Source of the DNA: Candidatus Poseidoniaceae archaeon
Lineage (GTDB): Archaea > Thermoplasmatota > Poseidoniia > Poseidoniales > Poseidoniaceae
NCBI GenBank assembly: GCA_938075675.1
Contig: CALJHE010000006.1
Location: 124,001-188,000 of the forward strand
Direction: 5' to 3'
Length of the DNA stretch: 64,000 nucleotides
This document shows, piece after piece, positions 32,158 to 53,253 of the stretch. A program made the translations under genes and the position numbers. Positions within the stretch are counted from its first letter, which is position 1. The number at the start of each line of letters is the position of its first letter. The notes under the pieces were generated by a model, which did not search any database, had not been told where the DNA came from, and was given only the letters and a program-made list of their open reading frames with translations.

Positions 32158-32295
32158 GGACTGGTGTCGTTGCCGAGCCTCCTTGAACATTCTCCTCGCC
32201 AGCGAAGAGATTCCGATTGCATTTGCCCAACTTTTTCATTCTCTCAACAGTGATGCGTAATGTGTTTTCATGATGCTCAAGCGAAAAGACAGTAT

Positions 32296-35200
32296 ATGGA
32301 GGTGGGCTTGAAGGCTCTGAGCCCCATGCTACGCGAGACAGCCCCCCGCCGAACCGCTTTAACCGTCTTCCTTGTTTTGATGTTCCTTTTCGCAGATTTA
32401 CTTCTGCCTCAGTCTATCGATTTTGAAAAGGAACTTGACGATGAACCTCGTATATCTTACGTTACTTCAACGGATACAGTACTGTCTGATACCTACATCA
32501 TGGAGGCAAACCCTTCAAACAACTACAATGCATCCGCAACAGGTTTTCTTGGAACTTCTATGGATGGATACGAATCAAGAATACTACTTGATTTTGCAAT
32601 GAATTTTTCGTCGGCAGACTCGATACAGTCGGCAACTTTGAACATTGTTTGTGATGCAAGTTCTTCATCTGCAGCAACAATGAACATTTATGCGGCATCA
32701 TCGAATTCATGGAATTCGAGCACAGTCTCCTGGTATCAGTTCGACATGGGTATGCCATGGGGCGAAGCAGGTGCTGATGGCGCAAACGACCGAAGTTCTT
32801 GGGAACCGCCTTTTAGAGCGATGACCAATGGCACATATTCGCTCAACGTCACAGCGTTCGCACAGGAAGCTGCCTCGAACAACGAATCCCATTTTGGCGT
32901 TCTGCTTTCTGGCCTTGGTTCACACTTTGAGTGCAAGATGTCAGAATCATTCCCCGTAACTGACCGTCCCGAACTCGTCATGGTTACCTCCTCAACTGCA
33001 GCAGGAAACGGTGGCTCAGTTACCTCCAACTTTGCTACAGATGGAATGCCATTGATGGCCGGCGGCCTCGTCTTGGCGGCAGATACAGCTCCTACTCTGT
33101 CCTATGAGTCACTCATTGGGGCACATGTGGAATTCCAACTTTCCCTCGATTCTACTTTCAAAGATTACAACGATTTGGATTGGCATTATTCAACACTCAG
33201 GAACAGTTTCTCAACCACAAGTTCCAGCGGAACATACACCGTTCCATCATCTGACCGTTTCGACAACGGAACTCGTATATTCTACCGAGTTCGCAGCGTT
33301 GATACAACCGATACACTCAGCGAATGGTCGTCAACCGAAAGTTTCCTTCTGCCGTCTCACACTGTGACTGACAACGGCGACGGTACGGCCAGTATCGAAG
33401 TCTCCCGTAATCAGTTGGGTGATATCGGTACATTCATTGAAGACTCGTACTCGAACGAACTGAGCAAGAATACCAAATACGGTTCTGACAGCACACTCCA
33501 AACCAGCGTAACTTCGAACAAGGAGTCACTCATCCATCTTCGAATGGATTTGAGCCTTCTTGGGCTCCCATCAAACGCAACCATCATTGATGCTCAACTG
33601 AACTTGACTCGTGATTCGTCATCCAACGACCCGATGCTTTCGATGCACGAAATGGAGTCGACATCTTGGGTCGAGTCCGAGTTGACATGGAACCGTGAAT
33701 CAAACGCAAACGGCTGGTCTGATGGAGGGCGTGTCTATTCATCGATTGCTTCTGCGACTGGATTCAACGGTACGCAGACCAGTGATGACTATGGATTTGG
33801 ATTCACCGATGTTGCGCAGTCTTGGCTTGAAAGCGGCGATACCAATGCTTCCGAGTTCTTGATTACGGCACGTGGTAAGGACGAAGCATACTCGACGACA
33901 GGTACCAAGAGTATCTCGTTTTTCAGCACCGAAGCATCTCTTGAAGACGACCAACCCTATGTCTACATTCACTACGGATTGAACTCGGGCAATCAACTCT
34001 CATCAGTTGTACTCACTGGGCCGGCCGAAGATGCAGCAGTTTGGAACCAGTCAGGTCACAACTTCACCGCAAACCTCACCCCTTCGATAACTTGGACTCC
34101 GCCGACTTCCAACAATGAAATGATCTTGCAGATGGCGACCGATGAACAATTCCGAAATGTAGTTTTGACATCCAATACCGGCATAGAAAGCGACTTCTCT
34201 CCATCCGATGGCATCCTCAACATGACAGGTGTAAACACCCTTGCTGCAGGAAATATGTATTTCTGGAGGATGGCTTACTTGGATTCTGACGGAAGATACG
34301 GGCCATGGTCCTCTTCCAACTTCTTGGTGAGTTCACTCGAAAGTACATGGCTTGGTGGTGAGCGCTCAGAATTTAGAATGAAGCACGGTAATGGGACAAC
34401 GGATGGCCTGTACCCCGAATGTCTCGATACGTACATTGACAGCGGCACTCCAAACCAAAATTACGATGAAGAATCGAAACTTCTCGTTTCTTACAACACC
34501 TATCCGATTGAAGCAATGGCTCTACTTAATTGCAACCTGCGTTCCAATCTGCTGCCCGCTGGCTACGCTGTTGAATCGGCTCAACTCTCTATGGTCGTCG
34601 CCAATACCCCCTCAAATTCACCTCGAGTCGCCGTATGGGAAAACACCCAAAGCAATTGGACCGATAGCGGTGCCACTTGGAATTCTTACGATGGCACAAA
34701 CTCTTGGGCTACCGCTGGAGCGAAAGGCTCCGAGCGCTCTTCACTGCTCGATTCAATTCAACTCGATTCATCGTATTCAAACGGCGACCGTATCTCTTGG
34801 AACGTTACATTGGGCGTTCAAAACGCAATGCGGCAAAACAGCAGTGCAGACTTCATGATTGGTATACTCGGAGTCGGCTCGGGTTCAAACCGTGAAGTCC
34901 AACTTTATCCAGGATTTGCTGCGGATGTTCGCAAACCGGAATTGACCTTCGTTTATGTCCCAGGTTCAAACGTTGTACCTGTCGACCCATCTCCAGTCTC
35001 ACCGCTCAACGGCTCATGGTCCATGGGCACGGGTGTTGACCAAACACCGATTAAGCGACCAACGCTGGAATGGTCCTTTGGAAACGCCGCTGGTGTTGCT
35101 GGCTGGGCAGTTCAACTCGATACCACTGATTCATTCGATTCAGCATCTCTTCTCACGCGCACCTCATGGAACGATGGTGGCTTTGACTCAACCAACTTCA

Positions 35201-38200
35201 CCTACACGCCAACCTCTGATTTGGACGATGGTGCAACATGGTACTGGCGAGTTCGTGCAATTTCCGCAACCAACCAAATCGGTAACTGGTCCAACATATT
35301 CACCTTTTCAGTGCCAGACCTTACAACTTGGCAAACCTGTGTTGACGGCTCGTGTGCATCTGTAGAATTGCATCACAGAGAGGCCATGCCTGATTTGAAT
35401 TTGCCGAATTTTGTTGACACCTATGTCATACAGTCTGGTTCAGGTTCATCCAATACTTACGACACATCAACTCAACTGAAAGTTGGCGCAACCAGCAACA
35501 ATGTGCAAGCGCTCTCTCTTCTTCGAATCCCATTGAATTCTCTTCCTCAGCCAACGAATGCTCGCGTTACTGGTGCTGAATTGAATTTGTATTCTGAGTT
35601 TTCATCAGCGGTCGGTGAACCAATCGCTATCCGGCCAGTACTCCAAGCGTGGAATACTTCGGCGAATGGACTTATGTTTGACGGCGTGAACAACTGGTCG
35701 CAAGCAGGAGGGCGTGGCCTTGGAACCGACCTAGGTCCGTACGTCGACCTGCAGGATTCGGTTGCTTCCGGATGGATGAATTGGGATATCACTGAGGCCG
35801 TTCAAGCAGCACTGGATGCCGGCTCATCGACGCTTTCCTTAGCCATTTACGCTTCAAACGACATCACATCGTACTCCAATGGACCCAATGTGGTGACGTT
35901 CACTTCGACGGACGGAACATCTGCTCAGCATCCTTGGCTGAACCTCACATGGTCGAACGGTACGGGAACTGTTCCAGCCACACCCGGCATAAACGCTGGT
36001 CCATCGAACGATTCCATCTCATGGGATTCAAGTTCGCATGCATTGCTCGCAGAGGAAATGCCTCTGTTCTCATGGAATTATCCTTCATCGGTCGCTGCTG
36101 ACGCATGGCGAATACACATTTTTGCTGACTCTACGGATGATATGGCAGGTCGCTACACTTTCGATTCTCGTGATGATCCAGACTTGTTCGATTTGCCAAA
36201 CAAGACGTTCCAACCGACTTCCCCAGTTGACTACTCTCAAACGGTTCGGTGGACCGTTCAACCAATTAAGCTCGGTATGATTGGTCCTCAAAGCACCTCC
36301 ACTCTTTTCCACGTTCCAGATGTTGATTCAGCAGAAGTTGACGCTACACATGCATGGGTCTCTCTCCAAGAAGGGGCGATGGTCGAAGGAGAAGGATATC
36401 CAATGATTACATCGGACACAACACTTGACGGTGGCAATGTATTCAACAACAACGGGGCCTCAGCGGGTCTTCTTGTGGGCCGTAGCCCATCGAACAGTTT
36501 GCTTCGGACCAGTTCACTTATCGAAATAGATTTCTCGTCTTTCCCACTGCCAGCAGTTTACGAAATTACGAATGCGACTTTGACACTTACTGCTTTTTCT
36601 GGAAGCGGTGAAGTGTATGTGACCGTTTCAGAGATGATTACCAACTGGAATGAGTCATCGAGTTGGGCTTATCCAGGTAACAATTCTACCTCATGGGTTG
36701 GTGTAGGCGCATACCAATCCGCTGACTCTATGATTCCAGAGACTCACGGCTTTTGGATGAATGAAACGGCGGATTTTGAAATCAATGTTACTTCCATGCT
36801 TCAACATGCTGTTGAAAGAGGCCAAGAGAGCCTCAATATTCTATTGCAAGCTGAAGACGCTTTCGGAACCGTTGCAGGAACATACTATATCGCCAGCAGC
36901 GAGAACTCGGCCATCGATGAGCGTCCAAAACTCACGATTGGATACGAACTCACATCACCATGGAGTCCAACAAGTCCCTCAAACCTCGAACCTCTGGATG
37001 GATCCACACTTTGGAACCTTTCCTCTCCGATACCCGCTGGAGCAGAGACTGTGGAAAGCAATTGGACCTCATCATCTTCAAATCAAACGCAGTGGGTTCT
37101 TTGCGGTGCGTTCAATTCGAGAATGACAGAAGGCCTTGAATGCTTCAATTCCACCGCACTCTCCTATGATTCGGACCTCGACATCACTTGGGATGCCCAA
37201 AACCTCTCTGTTTTCGTTGAAGGTCTTGAGCAGGCTGACGAATGGAAGTATTGGCGAGTCCGTGGCGACCAAGACGACCGGATTGGTCATTGGTCAACGG
37301 TTCATAAGTTCCGTATTCCCGATGTAAAAACTTCTGATGCTTCATCTGATGGACTCGGAAATTACTCGGTAACGCTCTCACGTGGCTCGCTCTTTAGTGA
37401 AACTGGCCTCCTTCCAGCAGTTCCAGATGCTGAGATCTCATCCTCGGCTACAACCTCTCTCGGTTTATCGAGCCAACTGAATATAGGGACTTCTGCATCT
37501 GGAACCGGTGAAAGTCAAGTTCTGCTTGAATTCGATTTGAGTTCGCTTCCATGGCCCGCTGCAATAACGCCAACATCGATGCTTCTCAGTTTGTACCGAA
37601 CCAGCGTGACTGGTACTTCAGCAACAACAGTGTCAGTACATGCATGTTCACCGTTTGTTGAAGCAACCGTCAACTGGAGCACGAATGTATCGTGTCAAAA
37701 CAGTGAAATTACTCGTTCGACTCTCACTTTGAGCCCTGCTTCTGGTTGGGCTTCTTGGGATCTGACAAGTCTAGCGCAGAGCAACATCGCCAATGGAAAC
37801 CTCACCATGACCATCTTGCTGAAGACTGTTGGTGCACCTGCGACAAACCATGCTTTCTACTCGTCAGATGGAAGTAATTCACTCCTAAGACCGAAGCTCG
37901 TTATCGATTATGTGGACAATGTTAACGGCGTATTACCACCTGCTCAGCCAACACTTAACACGCCTCAAGATGGTTCAGTACTCTACAATGTGTCTGGCTC
38001 AGTTCTCGAATCGAACGACCGTCCAGTTCTTGTGTGGTCTCCAGTATCGGGCGCCACTGGCTACATTCTGACCATCGCTAATGAAACTGGTGTCGTCAAA
38101 TACAATTCATTGGATTCCTCGGAAATTACCGGAACGACCTTCCGCTTTGCCAACTCACTACCGAGCGGTGAAGTGTTTACATGGTGGGTTCAAGGCATTA

Positions 38201-41200
38201 ATCAATCCATACCTGGTCCGTCTTCATCACGATGGACCTTCGCTATCGGCGCTCCAAACCATGTCGATAATGGTGATTTGACTTTCACATACACCTTCCA
38301 AACGGGCAGTGAAGTCTCACAGTTTGGGCACACCAACATTCGCGAAACACATCTCAACGAGGCAGAACCAACGATGAATTTCGGTGATTCCAGCATTGTT
38401 GAGATTGGAACTGGCTTTGGACCAAACTCTGGGATGCAGTCTCATCTCACCTTTGCTTTGGATAATGGACAAGTTCCTCTCGCTGCGTATTCAAACATTC
38501 ATTCAGCAAGCGCAGGATTCTACCTTGATTCTTGGACGCCAACCGGTGGTGCAACAGAGATGACATTCAGCGTCCATCGAATTATCAACTCTCAATGGGC
38601 ACAATACTCGTCAACTTGGAACGCGTCATCAAGTTCTGCTTCTGGCGCATGGGGTGCACCTGGGATGCAGGCGGGCGTTGATTACGATGCCACGCCAATC
38701 TCAACGTTTGTTGAGACGAACTTGAATGAGAACCGATGGATTTGGTTTGATATTGGTGTGAGCGGTATGCTCATCGATAACGACAACTCTTGGATTATCA
38801 TCGGAACTCCAAATCAGGGGACTCTCTTAGGAGAGTTCTATTCAAGCGAATATTCGATTTCCGACATGCGTCCTAAGATTCTGCTCAACCACACGAATGT
38901 AACGACAATTTCAGTTTCTCCGACCGCACCTACGACGGACGCTGACACAAGTGTATCGTTCTCGAATGTTGTGTACGACCATCTTAACATGGCAGCAGGT
39001 GCTCCAATCGTCTGGAGTGCAAGCAACGGCTCGATCACACAAGCTGGCGTATTCACGCCGTATGCAACAGGCCAACACACCGTCTCTGCATGCTTTGGCA
39101 TCATTTGTGCCAGTGAAACAGTAACGGTCACACCCGGTGCGCCTGTTGAATTGGTTGTGACACCTGAGACTGCAACAATTACCGCAGATCAATCCTTGCA
39201 AATCATGGCATATGTTATCGATCAATTTGGTAATACTGTGCCCGGTCAGACCATTGCCTATCTTCCAAGCAACGGAAGCATGGACTCGTCAACAGAAGGT
39301 TTGTTCTTGCCGGTAGGGGCTGGAACTCAAACCGTCGATGTGACTTGGAACGGTGTCATGATGACACCACAGACCATCTCAGTGTCTGTTCTTGTTGAGA
39401 CTGGTATTCCGGCCTATTTCGTTCTCGAGGGTTGCCAAGGTACGGTACCCGCTGGAATTCTTTGTGCAGTCACGCATACGCTTTACGACCAATTTGGAAA
39501 CGAAATCATCGATGACTCGGAGGCTGGAGACTTCACGTGGACAACCACGAATGGTAATTACAGCGAGACAACGGATGAGTACTTCCCAGACCACGTCGGT
39601 GATTGGTACCTCAACTTGACATCGACTTCCGGTGCATACGGCTCACTGGCAATCAGCGTCGGTCATGGCCAAATGGCAAGTCTCGAATTGGATGCTTCGT
39701 CAACATCCATCACAGCAGATGAACAAGTTTGGATTAACACGACTCGCATTGACATTCGTGGAAACCGACTGCCAGTTCTTCTTGAACTCGACAACTGGAT
39801 TACTCCACAGGACAGCCAATTGTTACCAGGTGCTCCAGCTATTTGGTCACCGACCTCTCGAGGTGCTAAGATTATCCAGGCCACGTACGAAACAATCTCT
39901 TCTGAAATAACCATCACCGTTGAAGAAGGTGCAATTGTTTCTCTTATCCTTCTTGTCGATAATGATGTAGCAACTTGGGAAAATTTCGATATCACCGCAG
40001 ACGATCTCTTCGATGTGAAGGTCAAAGCGTACGACCAAAAAGACAACCGTTGGATTGTGTCTGCGAATTGGAGTTTGGCTCATCCGGAATGGACCTCACA
40101 ATCTGCTCTGGAGCAGTTGCAAGGAGACGAGACCACATTTGTTCCATACCTCGCTTCAACTGAACACTACACCATTACCGCCGAATATTACGATGGAGTC
40201 ACTTTCCATGAGGTGAGCATCAATGTTACAGTTGCACACGGCGATTTGAATTCAGTCACACTTACTGCAACCGGCAGCGATGGCTTAGCAAACACTGTCT
40301 TCGACATTACTTCTGATGAACACATCGACTTTACATCGGCTCTCGCCGATTTGGACATGAACCCAATCGACCCTTCAATTCTTGAATGGTATCTCAAGAA
40401 CACCGACACCGGTGTCTCTACCGTAATCACCGATGAATTGGTTGCGAACAACATGCGCTGGGATGCTTCTGCGGTTGGCAATTGGTCGATTTCAGCATCT
40501 GCTATCAGCGACTCAGGATACAACATCAGCGACGCTGTTGCCGTTTCAGTCGTTCATGGAGAGGCTGTCAATGTGAATGCAGATCTCGATACCACGACCC
40601 AAACAGCAGGAGAAGAAATCACCATGGTTGTTACTGGAACTGATTCAGATGGCAACACATTCCCACAAATTGTAGAATGGTTGGAAAACGATGTAACAGT
40701 TGAGAACATCACAGCCGGGGAAAACGAAGGGACATATGTCTACTTGGCGACCACAGCCGGTGAACATACGCTGAAGTACACGACAGGGTCCACAGACTCT
40801 ACGCTTGTAATCACTGTTGAAGCACAACGTATCGTTGATTCATTGGATATCCAAATATCCTCACAATCAGTGGACCAACTCTCGAACTTTACGGTGACCG
40901 TCAAAGCCTTTGACGTGTATCTCAATCAAATTGAAGTCCCACCGAGTGCGGATGTAGACGCCACAGGTCGAGCAGAAGTATCGCAGCAAGGGCCTGGTGT
41001 TTGGAACGTTATCACGCTTGATGATGGCACAGTAACGGTGACGATTACCGCAGGTAAAGTCTCAGAAGAAAGAAACATCGAAGTTGAAGGCAACTTTGCT
41101 GGTTTCTTCAAGGCAGGTGGACCACTCTACTATGTTGGAGCAGGACTTCTCGGAATTGTTAGTATCGTCATTGTCGGGCTATTATTCTCAATGCTTCGCG

Positions 41201-41499
41201 GAGGCGAATCCGGTTACGATGACGACGATGATGAGTACGACGACGACGATGATGAGTACGACGATGACGACGATTCAAACACCCCTCGGGCTGCAACTTC
41301 AGGTCCAACAGGCCCTGCACCTGGACCATCAGGCCCCGCTCCAGAACAGAAAGAAGTGCCAGAAATTGTGCAAGAAGACACGGCATGGCAAGTTGATCAT
41401 CGAGTCGACGATGAAGGCACGGAATGGGCAGAGGATGAAAATGGCACATGGTGGTATCGCCAAGAAGGCGACACCGATTGGGGCGAATGGAAGGATTGA
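32296..41499 (+). CDS. Giant membrane-anchored surface protein with seven DNRLRE/fibronectin-like units and Ig-like repeats
   Basis: About 3,067 aa. Signal peptide TALTVFLVLMFLFADLL (about 28-45). Residues of about 65-2200 contain seven recurrences of a DNRLRE-type domain (DTYI-like start, then LL(E/R)FDLSSLP and the A.L.L strand), beginning near residues 65, 378, 709, 1039, 1361, 1705 and 2012, each followed by a fibronectin-III-like region (YWRVRAI...GNWSN...F.VP). From about 2200 to 2920 are Ig-like (BIG-type) repeats with a DQFGN motif. A membrane helix (YYVGAGLLGIVSIVIVGLLF) precedes a D-rich tract and a Trp-rich C-terminus (GTWWYRQEGDTDWGEW). DNRLRE domains occur in secreted polysaccharide- and surface-binding proteins. 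Start at ATG 32296; ATG 32326 is an alternative. Confidence 0.85.
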   Translation: MEVGLKALSPMLRETAPRRTALTVFLVLMFLFADLLLPQSIDFEKELDDEPRISYVTSTDTVLSDTYIMEANPSNNYNASATGFLGTSMDGYESRILLDFAMNFSSADSIQSATLNIVCDASSSSAATMNIYAASSNSWNSSTVSWYQFDMGMPWGEAGADGANDRSSWEPPFRAMTNGTYSLNVTAFAQEAASNNESHFGVLLSGLGSHFECKMSESFPVTDRPELVMVTSSTAAGNGGSVTSNFATDGMPLMAGGLVLAADTAPTLSYESLIGAHVEFQLSLDSTFKDYNDLDWHYSTLRNSFSTTSSSGTYTVPSSDRFDNGTRIFYRVRSVDTTDTLSEWSSTESFLLPSHTVTDNGDGTASIEVSRNQLGDIGTFIEDSYSNELSKNTKYGSDSTLQTSVTSNKESLIHLRMDLSLLGLPSNATIIDAQLNLTRDSSSNDPMLSMHEMESTSWVESELTWNRESNANGWSDGGRVYSSIASATGFNGTQTSDDYGFGFTDVAQSWLESGDTNASEFLITARGKDEAYSTTGTKSISFFSTEASLEDDQPYVYIHYGLNSGNQLSSVVLTGPAEDAAVWNQSGHNFTANLTPSITWTPPTSNNEMILQMATDEQFRNVVLTSNTGIESDFSPSDGILNMTGVNTLAAGNMYFWRMAYLDSDGRYGPWSSSNFLVSSLESTWLGGERSEFRMKHGNGTTDGLYPECLDTYIDSGTPNQNYDEESKLLVSYNTYPIEAMALLNCNLRSNLLPAGYAVESAQLSMVVANTPSNSPRVAVWENTQSNWTDSGATWNSYDGTNSWATAGAKGSERSSLLDSIQLDSSYSNGDRISWNVTLGVQNAMRQNSSADFMIGILGVGSGSNREVQLYPGFAADVRKPELTFVYVPGSNVVPVDPSPVSPLNGSWSMGTGVDQTPIKRPTLEWSFGNAAGVAGWAVQLDTTDSFDSASLLTRTSWNDGGFDSTNFTYTPTSDLDDGATWYWRVRAISATNQIGNWSNIFTFSVPDLTTWQTCVDGSCASVELHHREAMPDLNLPNFVDTYVIQSGSGSSNTYDTSTQLKVGATSNNVQALSLLRIPLNSLPQPTNARVTGAELNLYSEFSSAVGEPIAIRPVLQAWNTSANGLMFDGVNNWSQAGGRGLGTDLGPYVDLQDSVASGWMNWDITEAVQAALDAGSSTLSLAIYASNDITSYSNGPNVVTFTSTDGTSAQHPWLNLTWSNGTGTVPATPGINAGPSNDSISWDSSSHALLAEEMPLFSWNYPSSVAADAWRIHIFADSTDDMAGRYTFDSRDDPDLFDLPNKTFQPTSPVDYSQTVRWTVQPIKLGMIGPQSTSTLFHVPDVDSAEVDATHAWVSLQEGAMVEGEGYPMITSDTTLDGGNVFNNNGASAGLLVGRSPSNSLLRTSSLIEIDFSSFPLPAVYEITNATLTLTAFSGSGEVYVTVSEMITNWNESSSWAYPGNNSTSWVGVGAYQSADSMIPETHGFWMNETADFEINVTSMLQHAVERGQESLNILLQAEDAFGTVAGTYYIASSENSAIDERPKLTIGYELTSPWSPTSPSNLEPLDGSTLWNLSSPIPAGAETVESNWTSSSSNQTQWVLCGAFNSRMTEGLECFNSTALSYDSDLDITWDAQNLSVFVEGLEQADEWKYWRVRGDQDDRIGHWSTVHKFRIPDVKTSDASSDGLGNYSVTLSRGSLFSETGLLPAVPDAEISSSATTSLGLSSQLNIGTSASGTGESQVLLEFDLSSLPWPAAITPTSMLLSLYRTSVTGTSATTVSVHACSPFVEATVNWSTNVSCQNSEITRSTLTLSPASGWASWDLTSLAQSNIANGNLTMTILLKTVGAPATNHAFYSSDGSNSLLRPKLVIDYVDNVNGVLPPAQPTLNTPQDGSVLYNVSGSVLESNDRPVLVWSPVSGATGYILTIANETGVVKYNSLDSSEITGTTFRFANSLPSGEVFTWWVQGINQSIPGPSSSRWTFAIGAPNHVDNGDLTFTYTFQTGSEVSQFGHTNIRETHLNEAEPTMNFGDSSIVEIGTGFGPNSGMQSHLTFALDNGQVPLAAYSNIHSASAGFYLDSWTPTGGATEMTFSVHRIINSQWAQYSSTWNASSSSASGAWGAPGMQAGVDYDATPISTFVETNLNENRWIWFDIGVSGMLIDNDNSWIIIGTPNQGTLLGEFYSSEYSISDMRPKILLNHTNVTTISVSPTAPTTDADTSVSFSNVVYDHLNMAAGAPIVWSASNGSITQAGVFTPYATGQHTVSACFGIICASETVTVTPGAPVELVVTPETATITADQSLQIMAYVIDQFGNTVPGQTIAYLPSNGSMDSSTEGLFLPVGAGTQTVDVTWNGVMMTPQTISVSVLVETGIPAYFVLEGCQGTVPAGILCAVTHTLYDQFGNEIIDDSEAGDFTWTTTNGNYSETTDEYFPDHVGDWYLNLTSTSGAYGSLAISVGHGQMASLELDASSTSITADEQVWINTTRIDIRGNRLPVLLELDNWITPQDSQLLPGAPAIWSPTSRGAKIIQATYETISSEITITVEEGAIVSLILLVDNDVATWENFDITADDLFDVKVKAYDQKDNRWIVSANWSLAHPEWTSQSALEQLQGDETTFVPYLASTEHYTITAEYYDGVTFHEVSINVTVAHGDLNSVTLTATGSDGLANTVFDITSDEHIDFTSALADLDMNPIDPSILEWYLKNTDTGVSTVITDELVANNMRWDASAVGNWSISASAISDSGYNISDAVAVSVVHGEAVNVNADLDTTTQTAGEEITMVVTGTDSDGNTFPQIVEWLENDVTVENITAGENEGTYVYLATTAGEHTLKYTTGSTDSTLVITVEAQRIVDSLDIQISSQSVDQLSNFTVTVKAFDVYLNQIEVPPSADVDATGRAEVSQQGPGVWNVITLDDGTVTVTITAGKVSEERNIEVEGNFAGFFKAGGPLYYVGAGLLGIVSIVIVGLLFSMLRGGESGYDDDDDEYDDDDDEYDDDDDSNTPRAATSGPTGPAPGPSGPAPEQKEVPEIVQEDTAWQVDHRVDDEGTEWAEDENGTWWYRQEGDTDWGEWKD
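41218..41274 (+). repeat. 21-bp tandem repeat encoding an Asp-rich cytoplasmic tract
   Basis: Two full units (41218-41238 and 41239-41259) and a partial third (41260-41274) of GAY-GAY-GAC-GAT-GAT-GAG-TAC encode DDDDDEY twice and then DDDDD, immediately after the membrane helix of the surface protein. The number of units is likely to vary between strains. Confidence 0.85.
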
Positions 41500-41540
41500 A
41501 CAGCAAATCATTGATACACATTGACGAGGAAGTTGAGCAC

Positions 41541-44243
41541 ATGAAAGATGCAAATCAGTACAAGAGCATGATCTTGAGTTGCGTTTGCGTCCTGCTTTTT
41601 GGCTTCCACGGCTTTTCCATCTCAGAACCTCAGTTTTCTTCCCTTGAAGACGAGAGCATTGTTTCGAACCAAGGCGGCGCCCAACCCGTTCGTGTTGAAC
41701 TCTCAGCAGAATTTGTCTCGATTACCGCAGATGAAGTAGTCATGCTTACGGCACAACTTTACGACAATCTCAACAATATCGTCACTGGAGAGGTGGTATG
41801 GAGTTGCGCAAACGGCTCAATCACCGAAGATGGGATCTTCTATCCGTGGTCTTCTGGCTTGATTCAGATTGAAGCATCACACAATGGATTAGTTGGCTCC
41901 ATCAATATCACCGTTACACCTGGCGTAGGACAATCCCTTCGAATTACAAGTTTGACTGCACATGCGCTCCTGCCAGTATCTCTCACGGCTGAAGTTTTAG
42001 ATGCTCGTGGAAATGCTCAACCCGCATCCAATGTGGTTTGGTCCATTGATGGTTCATATGCTGGAGTCGGTTCACCGACTTGGACTGCCCAAGATATTGG
42101 TGAATACGCGATTCGTGCACGGCTCTACCAAATGGAGCATGTCGATACAATCGAGGTTTTGGCAGGAGCTCCTCACGAGTTCATTTTTGACGAGGGTATG
42201 CAAGTACGCAGCGGCTCAGCATTCTTGATGACTCCTCGCTTGGTGGATGTGAATGGCTTTGAAATGAACATTACTACTGCAGGTAACCGCATATGGGAGG
42301 TGGAGAACGGCACGATTCTTCCGTCAGGATGGTTTACTGCAACCCAACCTGGACTCTGGGCAGTCAATATATCGGCTGGCAACATTACCGGTACGGGAAT
42401 GATTCGAGTTGTTCCAGCAGATGCGACCATCTCGCAAGTAACTGTGCTCTCTGAAGGTGAGCAAGGAAGTCAACAATTTACCGCAGGTGTGGCCTACGAG
42501 CTTGTAGCAATGCGTACCGATTCTCTCGGTTATACAGGTACAATCACCCCGCCTTTGGCGAATTTCACTGTGTCAAGTGGAGGTCTTTCGAACATCAGTG
42601 GAGCGGTCTACTGGACTCCTGGCTCAGTGGGTACGCATGAAGTGCGAGTGAATGATGAAGGAGTTCTTTCGACGTTGTCTGTCGAAGTCGTGCATGGTCC
42701 TGCTATCGACGCAGTACTGACACTTACTTCCCCGGACTTTTCAGCAGGTGGACAAAGTACCATTGCTTTCATCGCATCCGACGTTATTGGCAATGAATGG
42801 CTTGTCAACGGCTCGATGACACTCGTCAACGGCAACAGTTCACAATATTCAGTCTCAACAGGGTACGCTGTGGTAACACCGGAAGAAACGCTCATCTGGA
42901 GGATTGAAGGGAACTGGTATGACGTGTCGACAGGCACTCGTTTTGAACCGGTATTCCAAATGCAGTCCACGCCGGGGCAACTTGCTTTCATCCTTCTCAA
43001 CGGTGAAGGGTCAATACTCCCTGCTGACACCTTACTCGCACTTAATCCGGTTTTCTATGATGCGTATTCGAATCAACTTGATGAAATTGGATTGAACTGG
43101 ACCGTTGATGGCATTGATTCCACCGTCGACATTTTACTTTCAGATCTGCATTGGATACCGACGACAGTTGGAGGGCACGAGATCCGCGCAAATGCCGCTG
43201 GAGTCTTTGCTACGGTTCGATTAACCGTCGTTGCAGGTGATGCTCGGAACCTTGTCACCAATTTTGAGGATGGGCTTACTGTTCAAGCAGGTGTTCCGAC
43301 TGAATTATTTATTCAAACCATCGACGCACATGGTAACTTGGCACCATCGACGGCCGTTCTCTCAACGCTTGATGAAGAGTTTGGCTCACTTGTTGCCTCC
43401 TCATCTGGTGACGGTTACTGGGACTTTACTGGCCGAATGAAAGGCACATATTCGCTTGAACTCATACAGGACAACGCAACCCACATTCTTCCATTAACAA
43501 TTGAGTCCGGTGCACCAGTACGAATCTTCTCAACCATGGAAATTGAGAACATCGCACAAGGCGATACTGTCCTTCTACGTGTTGAATCGGTAGATGTTTA
43601 CGGCAATCCTGTTGACGTCGTTCCGTCGAACACAACGGTCAGTTGCACTTCAGGATCTTCGGAACACGTTACTTCAGACACATGGGAATTGGATATTTCT
43701 TCCTCCGGAAACGACCGTTCTTGCAATATTCTATGGAATGGTTTACTTTCTCAGAACTATTTCGATGTGGAGTCTGTTCTGCTCGGAGGTGCAGTTGGTT
43801 CGACCAATACGGCCATGGGTCTTGGTATCTTTTTCTTGACATTGATTTTGGTAACTCTTGTGGTTTTGGTTCGTAAAGCCAACCAAGAAGAAGTTGACTG
43901 GACCGATGATGCATTCGACGAGACCGATGAATATGAGTCTGAAGATGATGAGGACAACGGCGAAATGCACGATACTACGCGTGAATCCGCTGATGAAGGT
44001 GCATCTGATGACTCATACGGTGATGGAGATAAATCGAGCAGTGAAAGTGTAGATGCTAAATCCACACAGCCAACATTATCTGATGATGAGCGTAATACTC
44101 TTGCAGGAAAAGCTGCAGAAGTCGGAGTAATGCAAGCCATTACTGGGACAGAACAAGGATCGAGTGGTTGGTATGTGGACGTTAGCGGTGAAATCCAGTA
44201 CTGGAACGTCGGCGACGATGGTTCATGGACTCGGGTTGAATGA
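41541..44243 (+). CDS. Membrane-anchored surface protein with Ig-like repeats, paralogous to the C-terminal half of the upstream giant
   Basis: 900 aa. Signal peptide (SMILSCVCVLLFGFHGFSI), then about eight Ig-like (BIG-type) repeats of 75-90 residues, each with SITADEVV-like or DAHGN motifs. A membrane helix (GLGIFFLTLILVTLVVLV, about 765-785) is followed by an acidic Ser/Asp/Glu-rich tail and a Trp-containing C-terminus (SSGWYVDVSGEIQYWNVGDDGSW). The same order (Ig repeats, helix, acidic tract, Trp motif) ends the upstream giant gene, 41 nt away, so the pair looks like a tandem partial duplication. A GAGG sequence lies about 12 nt upstream of the chosen ATG. The function is probably adhesion or cell-surface scaffolding. 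Confidence 0.83.
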   Translation: MKDANQYKSMILSCVCVLLFGFHGFSISEPQFSSLEDESIVSNQGGAQPVRVELSAEFVSITADEVVMLTAQLYDNLNNIVTGEVVWSCANGSITEDGIFYPWSSGLIQIEASHNGLVGSINITVTPGVGQSLRITSLTAHALLPVSLTAEVLDARGNAQPASNVVWSIDGSYAGVGSPTWTAQDIGEYAIRARLYQMEHVDTIEVLAGAPHEFIFDEGMQVRSGSAFLMTPRLVDVNGFEMNITTAGNRIWEVENGTILPSGWFTATQPGLWAVNISAGNITGTGMIRVVPADATISQVTVLSEGEQGSQQFTAGVAYELVAMRTDSLGYTGTITPPLANFTVSSGGLSNISGAVYWTPGSVGTHEVRVNDEGVLSTLSVEVVHGPAIDAVLTLTSPDFSAGGQSTIAFIASDVIGNEWLVNGSMTLVNGNSSQYSVSTGYAVVTPEETLIWRIEGNWYDVSTGTRFEPVFQMQSTPGQLAFILLNGEGSILPADTLLALNPVFYDAYSNQLDEIGLNWTVDGIDSTVDILLSDLHWIPTTVGGHEIRANAAGVFATVRLTVVAGDARNLVTNFEDGLTVQAGVPTELFIQTIDAHGNLAPSTAVLSTLDEEFGSLVASSSGDGYWDFTGRMKGTYSLELIQDNATHILPLTIESGAPVRIFSTMEIENIAQGDTVLLRVESVDVYGNPVDVVPSNTTVSCTSGSSEHVTSDTWELDISSSGNDRSCNILWNGLLSQNYFDVESVLLGGAVGSTNTAMGLGIFFLTLILVTLVVLVRKANQEEVDWTDDAFDETDEYESEDDEDNGEMHDTTRESADEGASDDSYGDGDKSSSESVDAKSTQPTLSDDERNTLAGKAAEVGVMQAITGTEQGSSGWYVDVSGEIQYWNVGDDGSWTRVE

Positions 44244-44394: not shown

Positions 44395-46020
44395 TTATTC
44401 TTCACTTTCCGCCTCGAAGGCAAGGAAGAACTCATCGATATCAATGACGCCGTTTTCATCCATGTCAGCGTTATGGAATATGCATCGGACCTCATCCGAT
44501 GTATACTCGAAGCCGAGGGCTTTCAATGCGTTTTGGAACTCTCGTAAGGTGAGGTGGTTCTTGCCGCCGAAGTCTGCAGCGTGGAACGCAGCAAGGCGAC
44601 GCTCATGCTCGGCAGCAGTCGTGAATTGAAATTGCTTTCGAAACGACTGGATCGGAGTTGTTTGAGTCACTGCGTGTTTCTTCCCGTAGAGATAGTATGT
44701 GGCTGCACCCGAAAGAATCGCAGCGCCACCGCCGATGAATGCCTTTGAACCGATGAAACTAATCAGCACTGCTCCAGCAAGTATTCCCCAGATGTGAATG
44801 TAGGGGTACAACGGAGCCTTGTACTTTGGATTCCAACCGTGCTCTTTACTGGTTCTTCGTAGAATGATGACGCAGCTATTTATCATGATGAAAATCATAA
44901 TCTTAAATCCTGATGCGAGTTTGACGACGTCCTTCAACGGCACGAATAGAATGGCCAGCCCCATAGCTAAGCCAGTGACGATTATAGGCCAGTGAGGGGT
45001 TTCAAACCGGACATTGACTTCTTCGAGAGCTTGTGGCAGTAGGTTGTCTCTTGACATTGCGAACAAAAATCGTGATGAAGCCAAGATTCCTGCGAGTGCC
45101 ATCGAGATCATGGTGAGAACGGAGAGAATCGCCGCAAAGATTCCAAATTCAGTCCCCGCTACCTTTTCAGCGAAAACGAATATTGGGTTTTCAACCACGG
45201 CGCCGTCTTGAATCCACCATGTGCCCGGTATTGCCGCCATCATAAGGTAAGCAATGGCAGAGTAGAGTACAGTTGCGATGAGGAGTGAGAGCATTATTCC
45301 AGCGGGTAGATTCCGCTCAGGATTCTTCACTTCTCCACCGATAGCAGCGACTTTGGTGACGCCAGCATAGGCTACGAACACAAACGCCGCTGCTTCGGCC
45401 AGCGACCAAACACTCGCATCAAAGGCGTCCGCTATTGGCCTCTTGGCATCGAAATCATCGACAAAAAATGCACCTATACAGATAACCACCAGCAGTCCGA
45501 CCGTGGAGACGACAATTGGAGCTTGTATGGCTTTCACCTTCGATACCCCGAAAATATTGATCATCGTGATGAGGACCAGAGCACTCATTGAGAGCACCAT
45601 TATACTAATTTCGACGTCAAAATATGTGGTGACGGTAATAAGGTAAGCAGAGAACCCAATCAGTGCAAAAGCCGATTTGAGAAGGAATGATGCCCACAAT
45701 CCTAGACCGCTAATGGTTCCAATAAGCGGCCCATATGTACGCTCTAAGTACACATACGATCCACCGCTGGAAGGCATGCCTGATGACAACTCCGATTTCG
45801 ACAAGGCACCAGGAAGAACTACTGATGCAGCGAGGAGATAGGCAAGCCATATTCCTGAACCCATGATTTCAGCAGCGAATGTTGGTGTCACGAAGATGCC
45901 GGGTAGCATTGCTGAGAGCGAGATGATTACAACGCCTGCAAGGCCAGTAGATCGCTTCAGAGTATTCTTCAACTCATCAGTTGCATTTACGATAATGGTT
46001 TTTGGTTTTGAACCCGACAT
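44395..46020 (-). CDS. APC-family amino acid permease fused to a C-terminal EF-hand pair
   Basis: 541 aa. Residues of about 15-455 form about 12 membrane helices of the amino acid/polyamine/organocation superfamily, with GIFVTPTFAAEIMGSGIW and the SSGGSYVYLERTYGP signature after helix 2. The last 75 residues are soluble: one degenerate EF-hand (DFGGKNHLTLREF) and one canonical calcium loop, DMDENGVIDIDE, with D1, D3, N5, D9 and E12 all in place. APC proteins exchange or import amino acids across the membrane; a calcium-binding tail is unusual. Start at ATG 46020 (MSGSKPK). A TATA-like AACATAATAA lies about 60 nt upstream on the coding strand. Substrate unknown. Confidence 0.88.
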   Translation of the reverse strand: MSGSKPKTIIVNATDELKNTLKRSTGLAGVVIISLSAMLPGIFVTPTFAAEIMGSGIWLAYLLAASVVLPGALSKSELSSGMPSSGGSYVYLERTYGPLIGTISGLGLWASFLLKSAFALIGFSAYLITVTTYFDVEISIMVLSMSALVLITMINIFGVSKVKAIQAPIVVSTVGLLVVICIGAFFVDDFDAKRPIADAFDASVWSLAEAAAFVFVAYAGVTKVAAIGGEVKNPERNLPAGIMLSLLIATVLYSAIAYLMMAAIPGTWWIQDGAVVENPIFVFAEKVAGTEFGIFAAILSVLTMISMALAGILASSRFLFAMSRDNLLPQALEEVNVRFETPHWPIIVTGLAMGLAILFVPLKDVVKLASGFKIMIFIMINSCVIILRRTSKEHGWNPKYKAPLYPYIHIWGILAGAVLISFIGSKAFIGGGAAILSGAATYYLYGKKHAVTQTTPIQSFRKQFQFTTAAEHERRLAAFHAADFGGKNHLTLREFQNALKALGFEYTSDEVRCIFHNADMDENGVIDIDEFFLAFEAESEE

Positions 46021-46127: not shown

Positions 46128-47555
46128 TTATTCAAGACTCGGAGCCTTTGCAATTACTTTCATTTCCACAGCGATAGGCGTAGGCAAGGCACGGATGGCG
46201 AGTGTTGTTCGAGTTGGTCCGACTTTACCCAGTGTTTCTGCCCAAACTTCGTTGTATCCTTTGAAATCCCGGTCCATATCGACCAGGAAAGAAGTGACAT
46301 CCAGTACGTCATCAATCGAACCACCTGCTTCTTCAAGAATACGGGTGATGTTTTGGACAACAGCATGTGTTTGAGCCTTGATGTCATATTCAAGGGGTTT
46401 GCCATCTGCGTCATGTATGGGTCCACCCGGTATGGAATTGGTCCCAGGTTGACGCGGGCCAACTCCAGAGAGATACAAGAGGTCACCAACTCGTCGAGCA
46501 TGAGGGTAGGCGCCCACAGGTTTAGGTGCAGCAGCACTGTTGACTGAGTCTTTACTCTCAGTTGGTTCCCACAATGCCGGGCCGTTTGAGTTTGAGGGCT
46601 TAGCCGATACAATTTCACTTACAATCTCAGTTTCGTCGCTTTGAGCATCGAGAACATTTCTTTCTCCTAAGAAATATTCGACATCGTCTTCATCGTATTC
46701 TTTGTCCCCAGCACCGGATGCAGCAGGGTCGAGGTGAACTACAGCGCCTCCAGCACCGTGAATTGCTTCGTATGCCAAGACTTCACCTGTGAGATTATTC
46801 CTGTTTTGGTTCATTCCAGAAAGCCACCACATTGGTTTGAAAGCAACCACTTTGTTGACACGTATTTGTCGGTGTATGGTGCGAGAAAGTTGACCAACAT
46901 CTTCGAGCCGACCTTCTCCCAAGAACTCCAGAATTTTACGATTCCATTCATCGTCTTTGAGAGAGTGAATTTTGTCGTCTTTTGGATCTATGGGTTTTGT
47001 GAACATTCTGTTCGATAGGGACATTGCAGTAACTGCAACGGCTTTTCGTCCAGTCGCCTTGATCACATCCATACACGCTTTAGCAAGAACAGTCGTTTCA
47101 GCACGGTTCGCATATACATTGGATGAAACGATAACGGCAGGAATGGCATTGTCGGGATTCAGTAACTTGAGCGCGACAACTGAACCAACATCGATTGGGA
47201 ATCCATGGTATGCTACAGTACGGCTCTTGAGTCCGCGGTTTTCATTGGCCTGATTCCATGCGTGTGCAAATTTATCATCGATGTTGAACGAATAGGGTAT
47301 TGACCCTAAGTCATGGAAGTCATTGTCAACCATAACCCATTCAGGATTCGGGTCGGCAATGATTTGATGGCCAATGATGCTAGGCCACGTGGTTGAGTAA
47401 ATGATGAGAAGGTCTGCACCACTGTCTTTAATTCGCTGAGCAGCTTCTCCAAAAGCATCTCTTAGGCGACCCCAACCCTCGTTTTGGTCTGCTGCCAAAA
47501 CGGTATGCGGGTGGACAGGTACGATGTATGACCCCACTAATTCCCCATCACTCAT
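46128..47555 (-). CDS. LigB-type dioxygenase alpha (non-catalytic) subunit fused to a RidA/2-aminomuconate deaminase-like domain
   Basis: 475 aa. Residues of about 1-285 match the class III extradiol dioxygenase (LigB) fold: IVPVHPHTVL, LLIIYSTTWPS and VAVTAMSLSNRMF. Where the catalytic subunit has SPHW and SLSH, this has STTW and SLSN, so metal and catalytic His are missing, as expected for the alpha subunit of 2-aminophenol 1,6-dioxygenase. An acidic Ser/Glu linker (about 286-340) leads to a RidA domain (about 343-475): GAYPHARRVGDLLYLSGVGPRQPG, and PTRTTLAIRALPTPIAVEMKVIA with the conserved Arg and Glu of deaminating RidA proteins. This closely resembles 2-aminomuconate deaminase. The ATG overlaps the stop of the catalytic-subunit gene (4 nt). 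Confidence 0.85.
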   Translation of the reverse strand: MSDGELVGSYIVPVHPHTVLAADQNEGWGRLRDAFGEAAQRIKDSGADLLIIYSTTWPSIIGHQIIADPNPEWVMVDNDFHDLGSIPYSFNIDDKFAHAWNQANENRGLKSRTVAYHGFPIDVGSVVALKLLNPDNAIPAVIVSSNVYANRAETTVLAKACMDVIKATGRKAVAVTAMSLSNRMFTKPIDPKDDKIHSLKDDEWNRKILEFLGEGRLEDVGQLSRTIHRQIRVNKVVAFKPMWWLSGMNQNRNNLTGEVLAYEAIHGAGGAVVHLDPAASGAGDKEYDEDDVEYFLGERNVLDAQSDETEIVSEIVSAKPSNSNGPALWEPTESKDSVNSAAAPKPVGAYPHARRVGDLLYLSGVGPRQPGTNSIPGGPIHDADGKPLEYDIKAQTHAVVQNITRILEEAGGSIDDVLDVTSFLVDMDRDFKGYNEVWAETLGKVGPTRTTLAIRALPTPIAVEMKVIAKAPSLE

Positions 47556-48454
47556 TCGCTCCCCTCCTTGTGGTTCCGCTCGGGCCATTCAACGATTGCA
47601 TTCCCTGTTCCAATGATGGTACCGTAACCGTGCAATATCCCGGGGTAATTCGGAATATCAAGCGTTGAGAGAAGCCAAGACAAACCGCCTCCGTCGCTTT
47701 CTGCGATTGCTTGTTCGGTAAACTCTGGCATTTCGTCAAGTATGCGTTGTGATTGTCCAGTTCGGAAGTATTCGATCATTCGCATGTCCCATAGATGCAT
47801 TGCATGGCTGGTAATATGTTCCTTGCTCATGTCTTCAGGGATGGCTGATTCCGTTGTGAAATGTCGGTGTGAAAGTGAATTACTCGCAAGTACAACTACT
47901 TTCTTCCCACTGGCAAGGATTGCTTCGCGTGTGACTCGGCCGAGTTCCATCATCATTTCTTGCATAACTTCGACGGAATAGTAATCTCTCGAACGGTTGC
48001 TCGACAAAACCACCAGTGGCTTATCCCATTGCGGATTGAACATGTGCCCGGTCGTTATTGTTCCATAGTCCACTCGGAAGTCTGGGTTCTCCATCATTTT
48101 GACGGCGAGTCCAGCATCCGCAGCCTTGTCATGTATCTGGCGAGCCAAGTCAACATCGATGCTCAAGTCGTAGTGGTATCGGAATAAGTTCGGGAAGACT
48201 GGGTCGACTGAGAGACTCTTGAATTTGGGCAGGCCAAGGAAGTGCGTGCCGATGTAGGTCTGCCAATGGGGTGAAAGCAAAACGATTGCATCGTATTCAA
48301 CATCCGCAAGCGACTCACGCAAGCGCTCATACCCCCAACGCAATTGTTCCCAGCCGCCTTCCGCAGTGGGCTCATTTTGCTCAGGATTCTCTGCATAAAC
48401 CAAGTGCGGTGGGTGCGGTGCTAAGCAGCCTGCGACGATTTCGCCCTTCGACAT
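47552..48454 (-). CDS. LigB-type extradiol dioxygenase catalytic (beta) subunit, 2-aminophenol 1,6-dioxygenase-like
   Basis: About 300 aa of the class III extradiol dioxygenase family, which opens aromatic rings using non-haem iron. Metal ligands are visible: His14 in LAPHPPHL and His63 in LLSPHWQT, with a candidate Glu near residue 250; the acid-base His is in NSLSHRHF. The pattern and the adjacent non-catalytic paralogue match 2-aminophenol/protocatechuate-type two-subunit enzymes. Substrate could be an aminophenol, a hydroxyanthranilate-like compound or a catechol; sequence alone does not decide. Start at ATG 48454 (MSKGEIV) rather than 48538. It diverges from a small membrane protein gene. 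Confidence 0.85.
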   Translation of the reverse strand: MSKGEIVAGCLAPHPPHLVYAENPEQNEPTAEGGWEQLRWGYERLRESLADVEYDAIVLLSPHWQTYIGTHFLGLPKFKSLSVDPVFPNLFRYHYDLSIDVDLARQIHDKAADAGLAVKMMENPDFRVDYGTITTGHMFNPQWDKPLVVLSSNRSRDYYSVEVMQEMMMELGRVTREAILASGKKVVVLASNSLSHRHFTTESAIPEDMSKEHITSHAMHLWDMRMIEYFRTGQSQRILDEMPEFTEQAIAESDGGGLSWLLSTLDIPNYPGILHGYGTIIGTGNAIVEWPERNHKEGSE

Positions 48455-48555
48455 GAACAAACCCATACATCGGGGGATTATATCGGCATCGGAGAATGCC
48501 GCTTCTCTCGCTCTTCCAACCGAACCCTCAAACAACACGGACTTTTGGGGGTGCT

Positions 48556-50674: not shown

Positions 50675-52135
50675 TTACTCAGGAGAATCTGGGTTTTTGA
50701 CGCAAATGTTGGTCATTTCCGAGAAGAATTCCATCGACCATTTACCGCCTTCTCTCCCTACGCCTGAATTCTTAACACCGCCGAAAGGTGTTCTTAGGTC
50801 TCTGTGTAGCCAGGTATTCACCCATACGATTCCAGTATCTATTTTCGTAGCAAAGTTACGACCACGTTCCAGGTCCTTGGTCCAAACAGAACCAGCTAGG
50901 CCGTATTCGGAATGATTGGCCATGACAATGGCTTCCTCTTCTGAATCAAATGTATGAAGCGTTACCATTGGACCAAAGATTTCCTCAGTCGCACATCGGG
51001 AAGTGTAGGATAAGCCAGATACAACCGTCGGTCGCAAAAAGGCTCCAACCCCATCAGGACCCGTGAAACCAGTCATTGCCCGAGTTCCACCCGTCAGCAC
51101 AGTACCCCCTTCGGCAAGTCCTAATTCAATGTACGACTCGACTTTTTCGAGATGCTCGGGTGAGATAACAGACCCCATAACCGTCTCATCGAGAGATGGA
51201 TTACCAATCGAGATTGAATTGACCTTTTCGATAAAACGCTTGGTGAACTCTTCTGCTATTGCCGAGTCGACTAAAATTCGTGAACCACAGAGGCACACTT
51301 GCCCCGAATTTGTGAAGGCAGCACGTACCGCACCGTCGACGGCCAGTGAGAGGTCGGCATCTTTGAGCACGATTGTTGCGTTTTTTCCGCCCAGTTCCAA
51401 TGACAATTTCTTGAACATAGGCGCAGCAGTTCGTGCCACAATTCTGCCGGTCGCTGTGCCACCGGTAAAGGAAATACCCTTGATACCGGGTGCTTCAAGG
51501 ATAGACTGGCCAACCTCAGGCCCGAGCCCATGCACGAGGTTAAACACTCCAGAAGGTAAGTCCAATTCATGCAAGGTTTCAGCCAAAATGTTGGCTGTGA
51601 GCGGTGTGATTTCACTCGGTTTGGCTACAATTGTATTCCCCATCAGCAGTGCAGGTGCTACTTTCCAACTAAGGAGATACAGAGGTAGATTCCACGGTGT
51701 GATGAGACCAACTGTTCCAACCGGCGAACGGTGGACATAGTTCATTGCATCAGCCATTTCAAACGTCATTTCAGATTGTTCTCGACTGAAACCAGCAAAA
51801 AATCGAAAGTTACTGACTGAGCGCGAAGCATCCACGCGGCGAGCAAGTGAAATTGGTTTTCCAGTATCCATCGATTCAGTCTGAGCAATGTGTTCATGTT
51901 TCTTTTCCAGTGCGTCTGCGATGCGGTCGAGCCAATCTGCGCGTTCAAGCATTGAAAGAGCCCCCCATTCCGACTGGGCTGAATGCGCAGCATCAACAGC
52001 CATTTGGACATCGTTCACCTTTGAGCGGGGAATCGTTGCAATACATTCAGCGGTTGCTGGGTTGTAATCCTCAAGAGTCTCTCCATCCAATGCGGCTTGA
52101 AAGACTCCGCCGATGTAGTTCTTGATTTCGAGCAT
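50675..52135 (-). CDS. Aldehyde dehydrogenase, 2-aminomuconic/2-hydroxymuconic semialdehyde dehydrogenase-like
   Basis: 486-aa NAD(P)-dependent aldehyde dehydrogenase. Seen: ITPWNLPLYLLSWK (oxyanion Asn, about 147), SFTGGTATGR (cofactor), LELGGKNATI (general base Glu, about 247), SGQVCLCGSRI (catalytic Cys, about 280) and TPFGGVKNSGVGREGGKWSMEFF near the end. The combination of PWNLPLYL, CLC-SRI and GREGG.-S-EFF is characteristic of semialdehyde dehydrogenases of the 2-aminomuconate/2-hydroxymuconate group. It starts 2 nt after the asparaginase-like stop, in an operon with the LLM oxidoreductase. Start ATG 52135 (MLEIKNY). Confidence 0.88.
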   Translation of the reverse strand: MLEIKNYIGGVFQAALDGETLEDYNPATAECIATIPRSKVNDVQMAVDAAHSAQSEWGALSMLERADWLDRIADALEKKHEHIAQTESMDTGKPISLARRVDASRSVSNFRFFAGFSREQSEMTFEMADAMNYVHRSPVGTVGLITPWNLPLYLLSWKVAPALLMGNTIVAKPSEITPLTANILAETLHELDLPSGVFNLVHGLGPEVGQSILEAPGIKGISFTGGTATGRIVARTAAPMFKKLSLELGGKNATIVLKDADLSLAVDGAVRAAFTNSGQVCLCGSRILVDSAIAEEFTKRFIEKVNSISIGNPSLDETVMGSVISPEHLEKVESYIELGLAEGGTVLTGGTRAMTGFTGPDGVGAFLRPTVVSGLSYTSRCATEEIFGPMVTLHTFDSEEEAIVMANHSEYGLAGSVWTKDLERGRNFATKIDTGIVWVNTWLHRDLRTPFGGVKNSGVGREGGKWSMEFFSEMTNICVKNPDSPE

Positions 52136-52137
52136 GC

Positions 52138-53253
52138 TCACATCTCCACATCGTACAGCCATCTGTCTTGATCTGGATCCCATTCATCCCAAGTCGGTAA
52201 CTTTTCCAGATGAGGAAGGTAATGTTCGGGTACAATTCCTGGGACAATGAATGCTTTTTGTCTGTGAAGTGGGTACGGGTTACGCAAGTTTATCCCGAGT
52301 ACTCCGAGAACTGCACGGGCAACATACCACATGGCTTGAGAGTTCCAGCCGTGTGCGATTTTGACAACAATACCGAGTCCTTTTGGATAATCAGGGTGTT
52401 CTATGGCAAGTCCAAGTAGTCCATCAGCGCCTTCCTTAGCGATGACTTTTCCTTCACCTGCCTTGAGAACGGTTGAGTCGAGGCGATTGAAACCTCCAAC
52501 GAGGTCAGGATGACGAACCATTGCCTCCCATATCCAATCTTTGTCCTTGTCTCGCACAAGTCCAGCATAGATTTGAGCCAGTTCAGCAACGGTGTTGGAC
52601 ACCGTAGGAAGTCCACATCCGTCTTTTGCAATACGAAGGGGTTTCCATTCTTCGCCGAGGTAGGTTCTCAATTCAACCATGTAGGCGTCGAAGACTTCGT
52701 GAGTTGGAAGCGTATATCCTGCACGATTCCATCCTTTTTTCCGGCAACCGAGTAAGATTGCGGCGTGTTCTCCCGAGCAAGTGTGGTACCATCGGCGAGG
52801 CCTTCGAACCTGTCGGCCAAATTGAATCAATGGTACATCAAGCGGAGTGAGCATGAGAGGCCATTCCTCCTGCGCTAGAAGCGATTGAGCGGCAGCAACG
52901 TGCTCTGTGTCGCCGTTGTGAGATGCCACAGCTATCGCTTTCTGTTCCCAACTGGTGTCTGCCAGTTCTTCAGTGAATGCCTTGAGCATGAACGGTTTCA
53001 TCATCGAACGACCGTAGCACAATACATTTCCTCCAAAGGAATGGATGACTTCATCGCCGTGTGACCAAGCAATTGCTCCGTGAATGGTCGTCTCAGATAC
53101 ACCGTTTCTTCGATAATCGACCAAGGGCTCCCAAGCCACTTCTCGACCGGTTGGAATACCTTCGATTTTCTCGCCGAGAGGTGATTCGGGGTAAAGCGAA
53201 CTGCCTGGCTTGCCGGGTTCAACTGCGGATGGTGTGTCATGCTCGATTGCCAC
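52138..53253 (-). CDS. L-asparaginase II (Rhizobium-type) family amidohydrolase
   Basis: 371 aa with a GTG start. Matches the plant/Rhizobium-type asparaginase II family: RSMMKPFML (Ser-x-x-Lys nucleophile pair), AVASHNGDTEHV, HTCSGEHAAILLG and DGCGLPTV. In characterised members the second block reads CSGKH, with Cys, Lys and the DGCG Cys around a metal; here that Lys is Glu, so specificity may differ. It is 4 nt downstream of the LLM gene and 2 nt upstream of the aldehyde dehydrogenase, which links it to that pathway. It could hydrolyse an amide intermediate rather than asparagine; that is inference. Confidence 0.8.
   Translation of the reverse strand: MAIEHDTPSAVEPGKPGSSLYPESPLGEKIEGIPTGREVAWEPLVDYRRNGVSETTIHGAIAWSHGDEVIHSFGGNVLCYGRSMMKPFMLKAFTEELADTSWEQKAIAVASHNGDTEHVAAAQSLLAQEEWPLMLTPLDVPLIQFGRQVRRPRRWYHTCSGEHAAILLGCRKKGWNRAGYTLPTHEVFDAYMVELRTYLGEEWKPLRIAKDGCGLPTVSNTVAELAQIYAGLVRDKDKDWIWEAMVRHPDLVGGFNRLDSTVLKAGEGKVIAKEGADGLLGLAIEHPDYPKGLGIVVKIAHGWNSQAMWYVARAVLGVLGINLRNPYPLHRQKAFIVPGIVPEHYLPHLEKLPTWDEWDPDQDRWLYDVEM

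Follow-up and report, generated by a model that had tools for sequence, protein, structure and literature searches.

An APC-family permease with a conserved C-terminal EF-hand pair in Candidatus Poseidoniales

Calcium control of membrane transport through fused EF-hands is well established in mitochondrial carriers and little documented in archaea. In the SLC25 ATP-Mg/Pi carriers, the calcium-loaded EF domain holds an amphipathic linker helix, and at low calcium the helix is released and the carrier is blocked (PMC6283063). Calcium-binding domains have been noted in Poseidoniales-specific protein modules, in passages that do not name the permease discussed here (PMC9258230). The bacterial amn cluster for 2-aminophenol, which is relevant to the genes beside that permease, comprises AmnA, AmnB, AmnC and AmnD (PMC3790839). 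The original prediction for this locus described an APC permease with a C-terminal EF-hand pair and held that the architecture was not a standard one, and no report of an APC and EF-hand fusion was found in the literature searched.

The window, meaning the whole 64,000-nucleotide stretch of Poseidoniaceae DNA that was analysed, encodes this protein on the minus strand at 44395..46020, with an ATG at 46020, a stop at 44395 and 541 amino acids between them. The reading frame is as originally predicted, and both domains score above their Pfam cut-offs: AA_permease_2 (PF13520) matches residues 33-423 (9.1e-38, 130.7 bits against a cut-off of 27), EF-hand_7 (PF13499) matches residues 478-532 (3.2e-9, 37.5 bits against a cut-off of 30), and EF-hand_6 and EF-hand_1 are likewise above cut-off in the tail. 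The AlphaFold2 (AF2) model of the full chain, with a mean pLDDT of 81.5, has 12 transmembrane (TM) helices followed by a linker helix and then four EF helices, and the permease core occupies residues 33-449 (44674..45924, minus strand). The closest solved permease is GkApcT (6f34, E 6.9e-32), which Foldseek also ranks first with a TMt of 0.85. The score against TIGR00909 (2A0306) is 191.5 bits where the curated cut-off is 556.8, which by NCBI's cut-off makes the permease a relative of that family outside its membership. Taken together, the domain and fold matches identify the protein as a 12-TM secondary transporter of the APC superfamily, CAT/SLC7-like, with a predicted cytosolic tail.

The side of the membrane on which the tail lies was read from the positive-inside rule. 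By our count the inside loops carry most of the lysines and arginines, so the N and C termini are predicted to be cytosolic and the EF-hand tail is predicted to lie on the same side. This fits the setting originally proposed, a marine archaeon with abundant calcium outside the cell and little inside it: the organism belongs to the Poseidoniales, and the predicted location of the tail is where free calcium is low.

The permease differs from known relatives in two places. In known APC relatives a GSG motif in TM1 holds the carboxylate of the amino acid. At this position the window's permease reads LPGIF (residues 39-43, 45892..45906, minus strand) where other members of the order read GSG[LI]F, one residue longer, and the G-x-G substrate-binding motif is therefore missing from the unwound part of TM1. 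The same one-residue deletion and loss of GSG is common to a clade of 35 rows that includes the window's permease, and in the alignment most Poseidoniales permeases outside that clade have GSG. In TM5, T173 (45502..45504, minus strand) aligns with a lysine of GkApcT, which we take to be K191 and which has a role in proton coupling. The lysine is absent from the aligned Poseidoniales copies. Given the loss of GSG and the absence of the TM5 lysine, both cargo and coupling may depart from those of textbook APC permeases.

The tail itself was examined by profile, structure and alignment. A phmmer search of the PDB with the tail returned centrin (3.7e-12) and many calmodulins. Both AF2 models have the EF-hand fold in this region, and the model made from the tail only (mean pLDDT 81.4) matches centrin and calmodulin as well as 4zcu (rmsd 2.0), the regulatory domain of the human ATP-Mg/Pi carrier. 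Canonical ligands were judged at loop positions 1, 3, 5, (9) and 12, with at least one hand required. The loop of the second hand, EF2 (DMDENGVIDIDE, residues 519-530, 44431..44466, minus strand), has them, and that of the first, EF1 (DFGGKNHLTLRE, residues 483-494, 44539..44574, minus strand), does not; EF1 is degenerate and conserved in a form of its own. This is the pairing of one degenerate and one fully canonical hand that had been predicted. Calcium binding by the tail is very likely, and EF2 is the only hand able to bind calcium canonically.

An alignment of 95 homologous tails, equivalent to about 54 effective sequences, was used to ask which positions are kept. EF2 has aspartate at position 1 and glycine at position 6 in all 95, and positions 3 and 5 are D, N or S in every tail, whereas positions 2 and 4 are unconstrained. 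Strictly canonical ligands are found in EF2 of 91 of the 95 tails and in EF1 of 3. Pooled dN/dS across 24 close pairs comes to 0.048 in the permease, 0.106 in the linker and 0.070 in the tail, the last value indicating strong purifying selection. Fixed ligand positions, free neighbours and low dN/dS form the pattern expected if calcium coordination by EF2 has been selected, and we regard the EF-hand tail on the permease as real, conserved and selected.

Between TM12 and the EF-hands lies a juxtamembrane amphipathic helix with the motif TPxxxFRxxF, at residues 455-464 (44629..44658, minus strand); in the AF2 model the helix spans residues 456-464. The proline of the motif is present in 95 of 95 tails, as is a hydrophobic residue at motif position 3, and positions 6 and 10 are mostly hydrophobic. 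The AF2 model has low confidence (pLDDT 52-58) in the stretch that joins TM12 to the EF pair, so it yields no docking surface. By analogy with the ATP-Mg/Pi carriers, the linker helix is a candidate switch element.

Genome searches for the fusion covered the window's phylum. The permease was found in 91 of 100 relatives, and a sample drawn from the phylum shows it in both families of the order, Poseidoniaceae and Thalassarchaeaceae. The fusion also occurs in both (the tail is present in 95 copies and missing or unreadable in 34). A scan of contigs gave matches that, among the best 80 listed, are essentially all Poseidoniales by title or by sequence. One contig titled as a Rhodobiaceae bacterium (L231) carries a Poseidoniales permease and operon and is probably mis-binned. 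The tail is also present in isolate AH-273-F07 (L228), whose title makes no mention of a MAG and which looks like a single-cell genome.

The tree, built from 135 permease cores, places every member of the order in one clade (support 100), which contains 87 rows with EF-hands and 30 rows without a tail and requires at least 9 changes of state, a rough count from a quick tree with some long branches. The tail is absent in about a quarter of copies, and many of these retain the linker motif (TPF..., TPL...) and end before the EF domain. The tree and the leftover linker motifs point to one old fusion followed by repeated loss, and a single fusion before the two families split is suggested as the simplest reading. 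Repeated loss also implies that the tail is dispensable and that transport does not need it. Two EF-less permeases (L049, L149) end instead in a short tail of the NI-I-DSVV-DS-I type. An EF-like tail is present in none of the 18 outside-order rows of the tree. Among the closest permeases found outside the order, in other Thermoplasmatota, those scanned have a PTS-EIIA-like domain (PTS_EIIA_2, PF00359) or a Usp domain (PF00582) at the position of the EF-hand tail, which indicates that this type of permease repeatedly takes on a C-terminal domain.

The neighbouring genes bear on the possible cargo. Directly upstream on the minus strand is a fusion of a 2-aminophenol 1,6-dioxygenase alpha-like domain of the LigB fold with a RidA domain (46128..47588); the alpha-like part matches 3vsg_A (6.3e-37), and the RidA domain is nearest to 2-aminomuconate deaminase (6izh_A, 4.8e-26). 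Next upstream is a 2-aminophenol 1,6-dioxygenase beta-like gene (47552..48538, minus strand; 8ihg_A, E 2.8e-105) whose true start is likely near 48454, and both alpha-type and beta-type dioxygenase subunits are present (3vsg_A for alpha, 8ihg_A/3vsg_B for beta). About 2 kb further upstream is an aldehyde dehydrogenase nearest to 2-aminomuconate 6-semialdehyde dehydrogenase (50675..52183, minus strand; 4u3w, E 2.3e-137). Across the order the permease lies near, and on the same strand as, two LigB-fold genes and a RidA domain, and often follows them immediately downstream. At some loci in Thalassarchaeaceae it is separated from them by other genes, and certain second copies of the permease have no LigB-fold or RidA neighbours. 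The idea that the aminophenol operon goes with the GSG-less PGIF type but not with the GSG type was rejected, as both types adjoin the operon. Elsewhere in the window, at 25-13320 and 32260-44243, are giant reading frames of 4431, 3079 and 931 amino acids that are probably surface proteins; CBM96 and disaggregatase repeats occur in the 3079-residue frame, and a weak Big_1 match in the 931-residue frame.

The conserved operon makes an aromatic or aminoaromatic compound, or else an aromatic amino acid, a possible cargo in place of amino acids in general, and we are unsure of the "amino acid" that the original prediction gave as substrate. A tryptophan/kynurenine route was considered as the source of the operon's substrate: the same genome, roughly 90% complete, has a homologue of tryptophan 2,3-dioxygenase (L278, G000:C1:38788-39792) and gave no match to kynureninase or to a dmpH-type 4-oxalocrotonate decarboxylase. 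The canonical aminophenol and tryptophan pathways are incomplete in this genome as it stands.

The fusion occurs across the whole group, which makes a calcium switch on uptake the probable role of the tail, and by analogy with the mitochondrial carriers it likely regulates the transporter by calcium. In the proposed mechanism, EF2 would bind one Ca2+ and EF1 would act as its structural partner. A rise in cytosolic calcium would fill EF2 and open the EF pair, and the opened pair would capture or release the linker helix, much as happens with the amphipathic helix of the EF-hand ATP-Mg/Pi carriers, changing permease activity by activation or by inhibition. The cargo, judging by the conserved operon, would be supplied to an aminophenol-type ring-cleaving pathway. 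For this combined reading, a cytosolic calcium sensor that modulates the permease and a cargo that feeds ring cleavage, we see the chances as slightly favourable. Counting against this combined reading are the single canonical hand, the dispensable tail, the incomplete pathways and the low-confidence linker.

As a rival, the tail may bind Ca2+ (or Mg2+) only for its own folding or stability, or as an assembly or docking element for another protein, and would then not gate transport at all. In favour of this, one hand of the two is degenerate, losses of the tail have occurred several times, its tether is modelled with low confidence, and unrelated soluble proteins of this genome bear EF-hands too. 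However, an amphipathic helix directly after TM12 and strongly kept ligand positions fit a switch better, and we regard this explanation as plausible and on the doubtful side. A role as a cytosolic calcium buffer, or as a local calcium reservoir at the membrane, in either case without allosteric effect, would suit the abundance of EF-hand proteins in Poseidoniaceae (4-13 PF13499 matches per genome), but a single site on each permease would buffer little calcium and the conserved linker is left unexplained, which makes this role improbable. A chance EF-like motif or an assembly or frameshift artefact, for which a frameshift that cuts the tail of one relative (L048/L253) could be cited, is already refuted by the present data, because 95 tails occur in many independent assemblies across the order, 91 of them with a strictly canonical EF2, and the Pfam and PDB matches are significant; the fusion thus survives the artefact check that the original prediction had named.

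EF-hand pairs are common in this order and rare in the remainder of the phylum: genomes of the window's family have 4-13 matches each, those of the order's other family 0-5 (12 in one genome), and genomes elsewhere mostly 0. The same module, of roughly 90 amino acids and about 50-68% identical, is found in two other membrane complexes. Subunit I of the A-type ATP synthase (L004/L158, G000:C1:25141-27486) has an EF-hand pair inserted at about residues 317-406 in the window's genus (g1), and the insert is absent from that place in the other genera checked. NuoL of complex I (L269, L270, L273 and L279-L284) carries the module in all five genomes of genus g13 and, from the other family, in genome G075; the remaining matched genomes lack it there. 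No report of either insertion, as of the permease fusion, was found in the literature searched. Three multi-TM proteins of about 650 amino acids (L268, L271, L272), whose membrane part has no Pfam name, have the same module at their end, and a DNA gyrase subunit A (L008, G000:C2:116516) ends in a single EF-hand.

The EF-hands in subunit I and NuoL suggest a wider calcium theme. In its broadest form, cytosolic calcium signalling in Poseidoniales would act directly on membrane energetics, with EF modules attached, in one lineage after another, to the permease (the whole order), to subunit I (g1) and to NuoL (g13), and calcium would tune uptake, proton pumping and ATP synthesis together; we offer this as speculation that is rather unlikely to hold in full. 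What is at stake is a fusion conserved across one of the most abundant groups of planktonic archaea, beside a ring-cleavage operon, and the question of whether archaea use calcium as a signal can be put to a precise biochemical test on a single protein that can be expressed.

Set beside the systems described at the outset, the locus combines familiar parts. The window's permease and GkApcT (Geobacillus kaustophilus, 5oqt/6f34), of the CAT/SLC7 branch, have the same fold at about 24% identity over the whole permease, but GkApcT has the TM5 lysine and no EF-hand tail, whereas the window's permease has the tail and a threonine in TM5; the window's clade also lacks the G-x-G motif of TM1, unlike GkApcT and the CAT/SLC7 branch. 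The permeases of other Thermoplasmatota with Usp or PTS-EIIA-like domains are the nearest homologues found outside the order and share the point of attachment, but their soluble domain is a different one and does not bind calcium. As in the bacterial amn cluster, the neighbouring genes include homologues of AmnB, of AmnA fused to an AmnD-like domain and of AmnC; unlike it, they have the A-D fusion and an adjoining APC permease, and the genome lacks a match to the dmpH-type decarboxylase. The SLC25 ATP-Mg/Pi carriers (SCaMC) likewise join a membrane carrier, an amphipathic linker helix and a calcium-sensing EF-hand domain (PMC6283063), but they are mitochondrial, have an unrelated fold and bear four EF-hands at the N-terminus, whereas the window's permease is of the LeuT fold. 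The two belong to different families and at most work alike. EF-hand-regulated carriers are already known, and by this analogy the APC permease with its EF-hand tail would be the same idea on a new scaffold.
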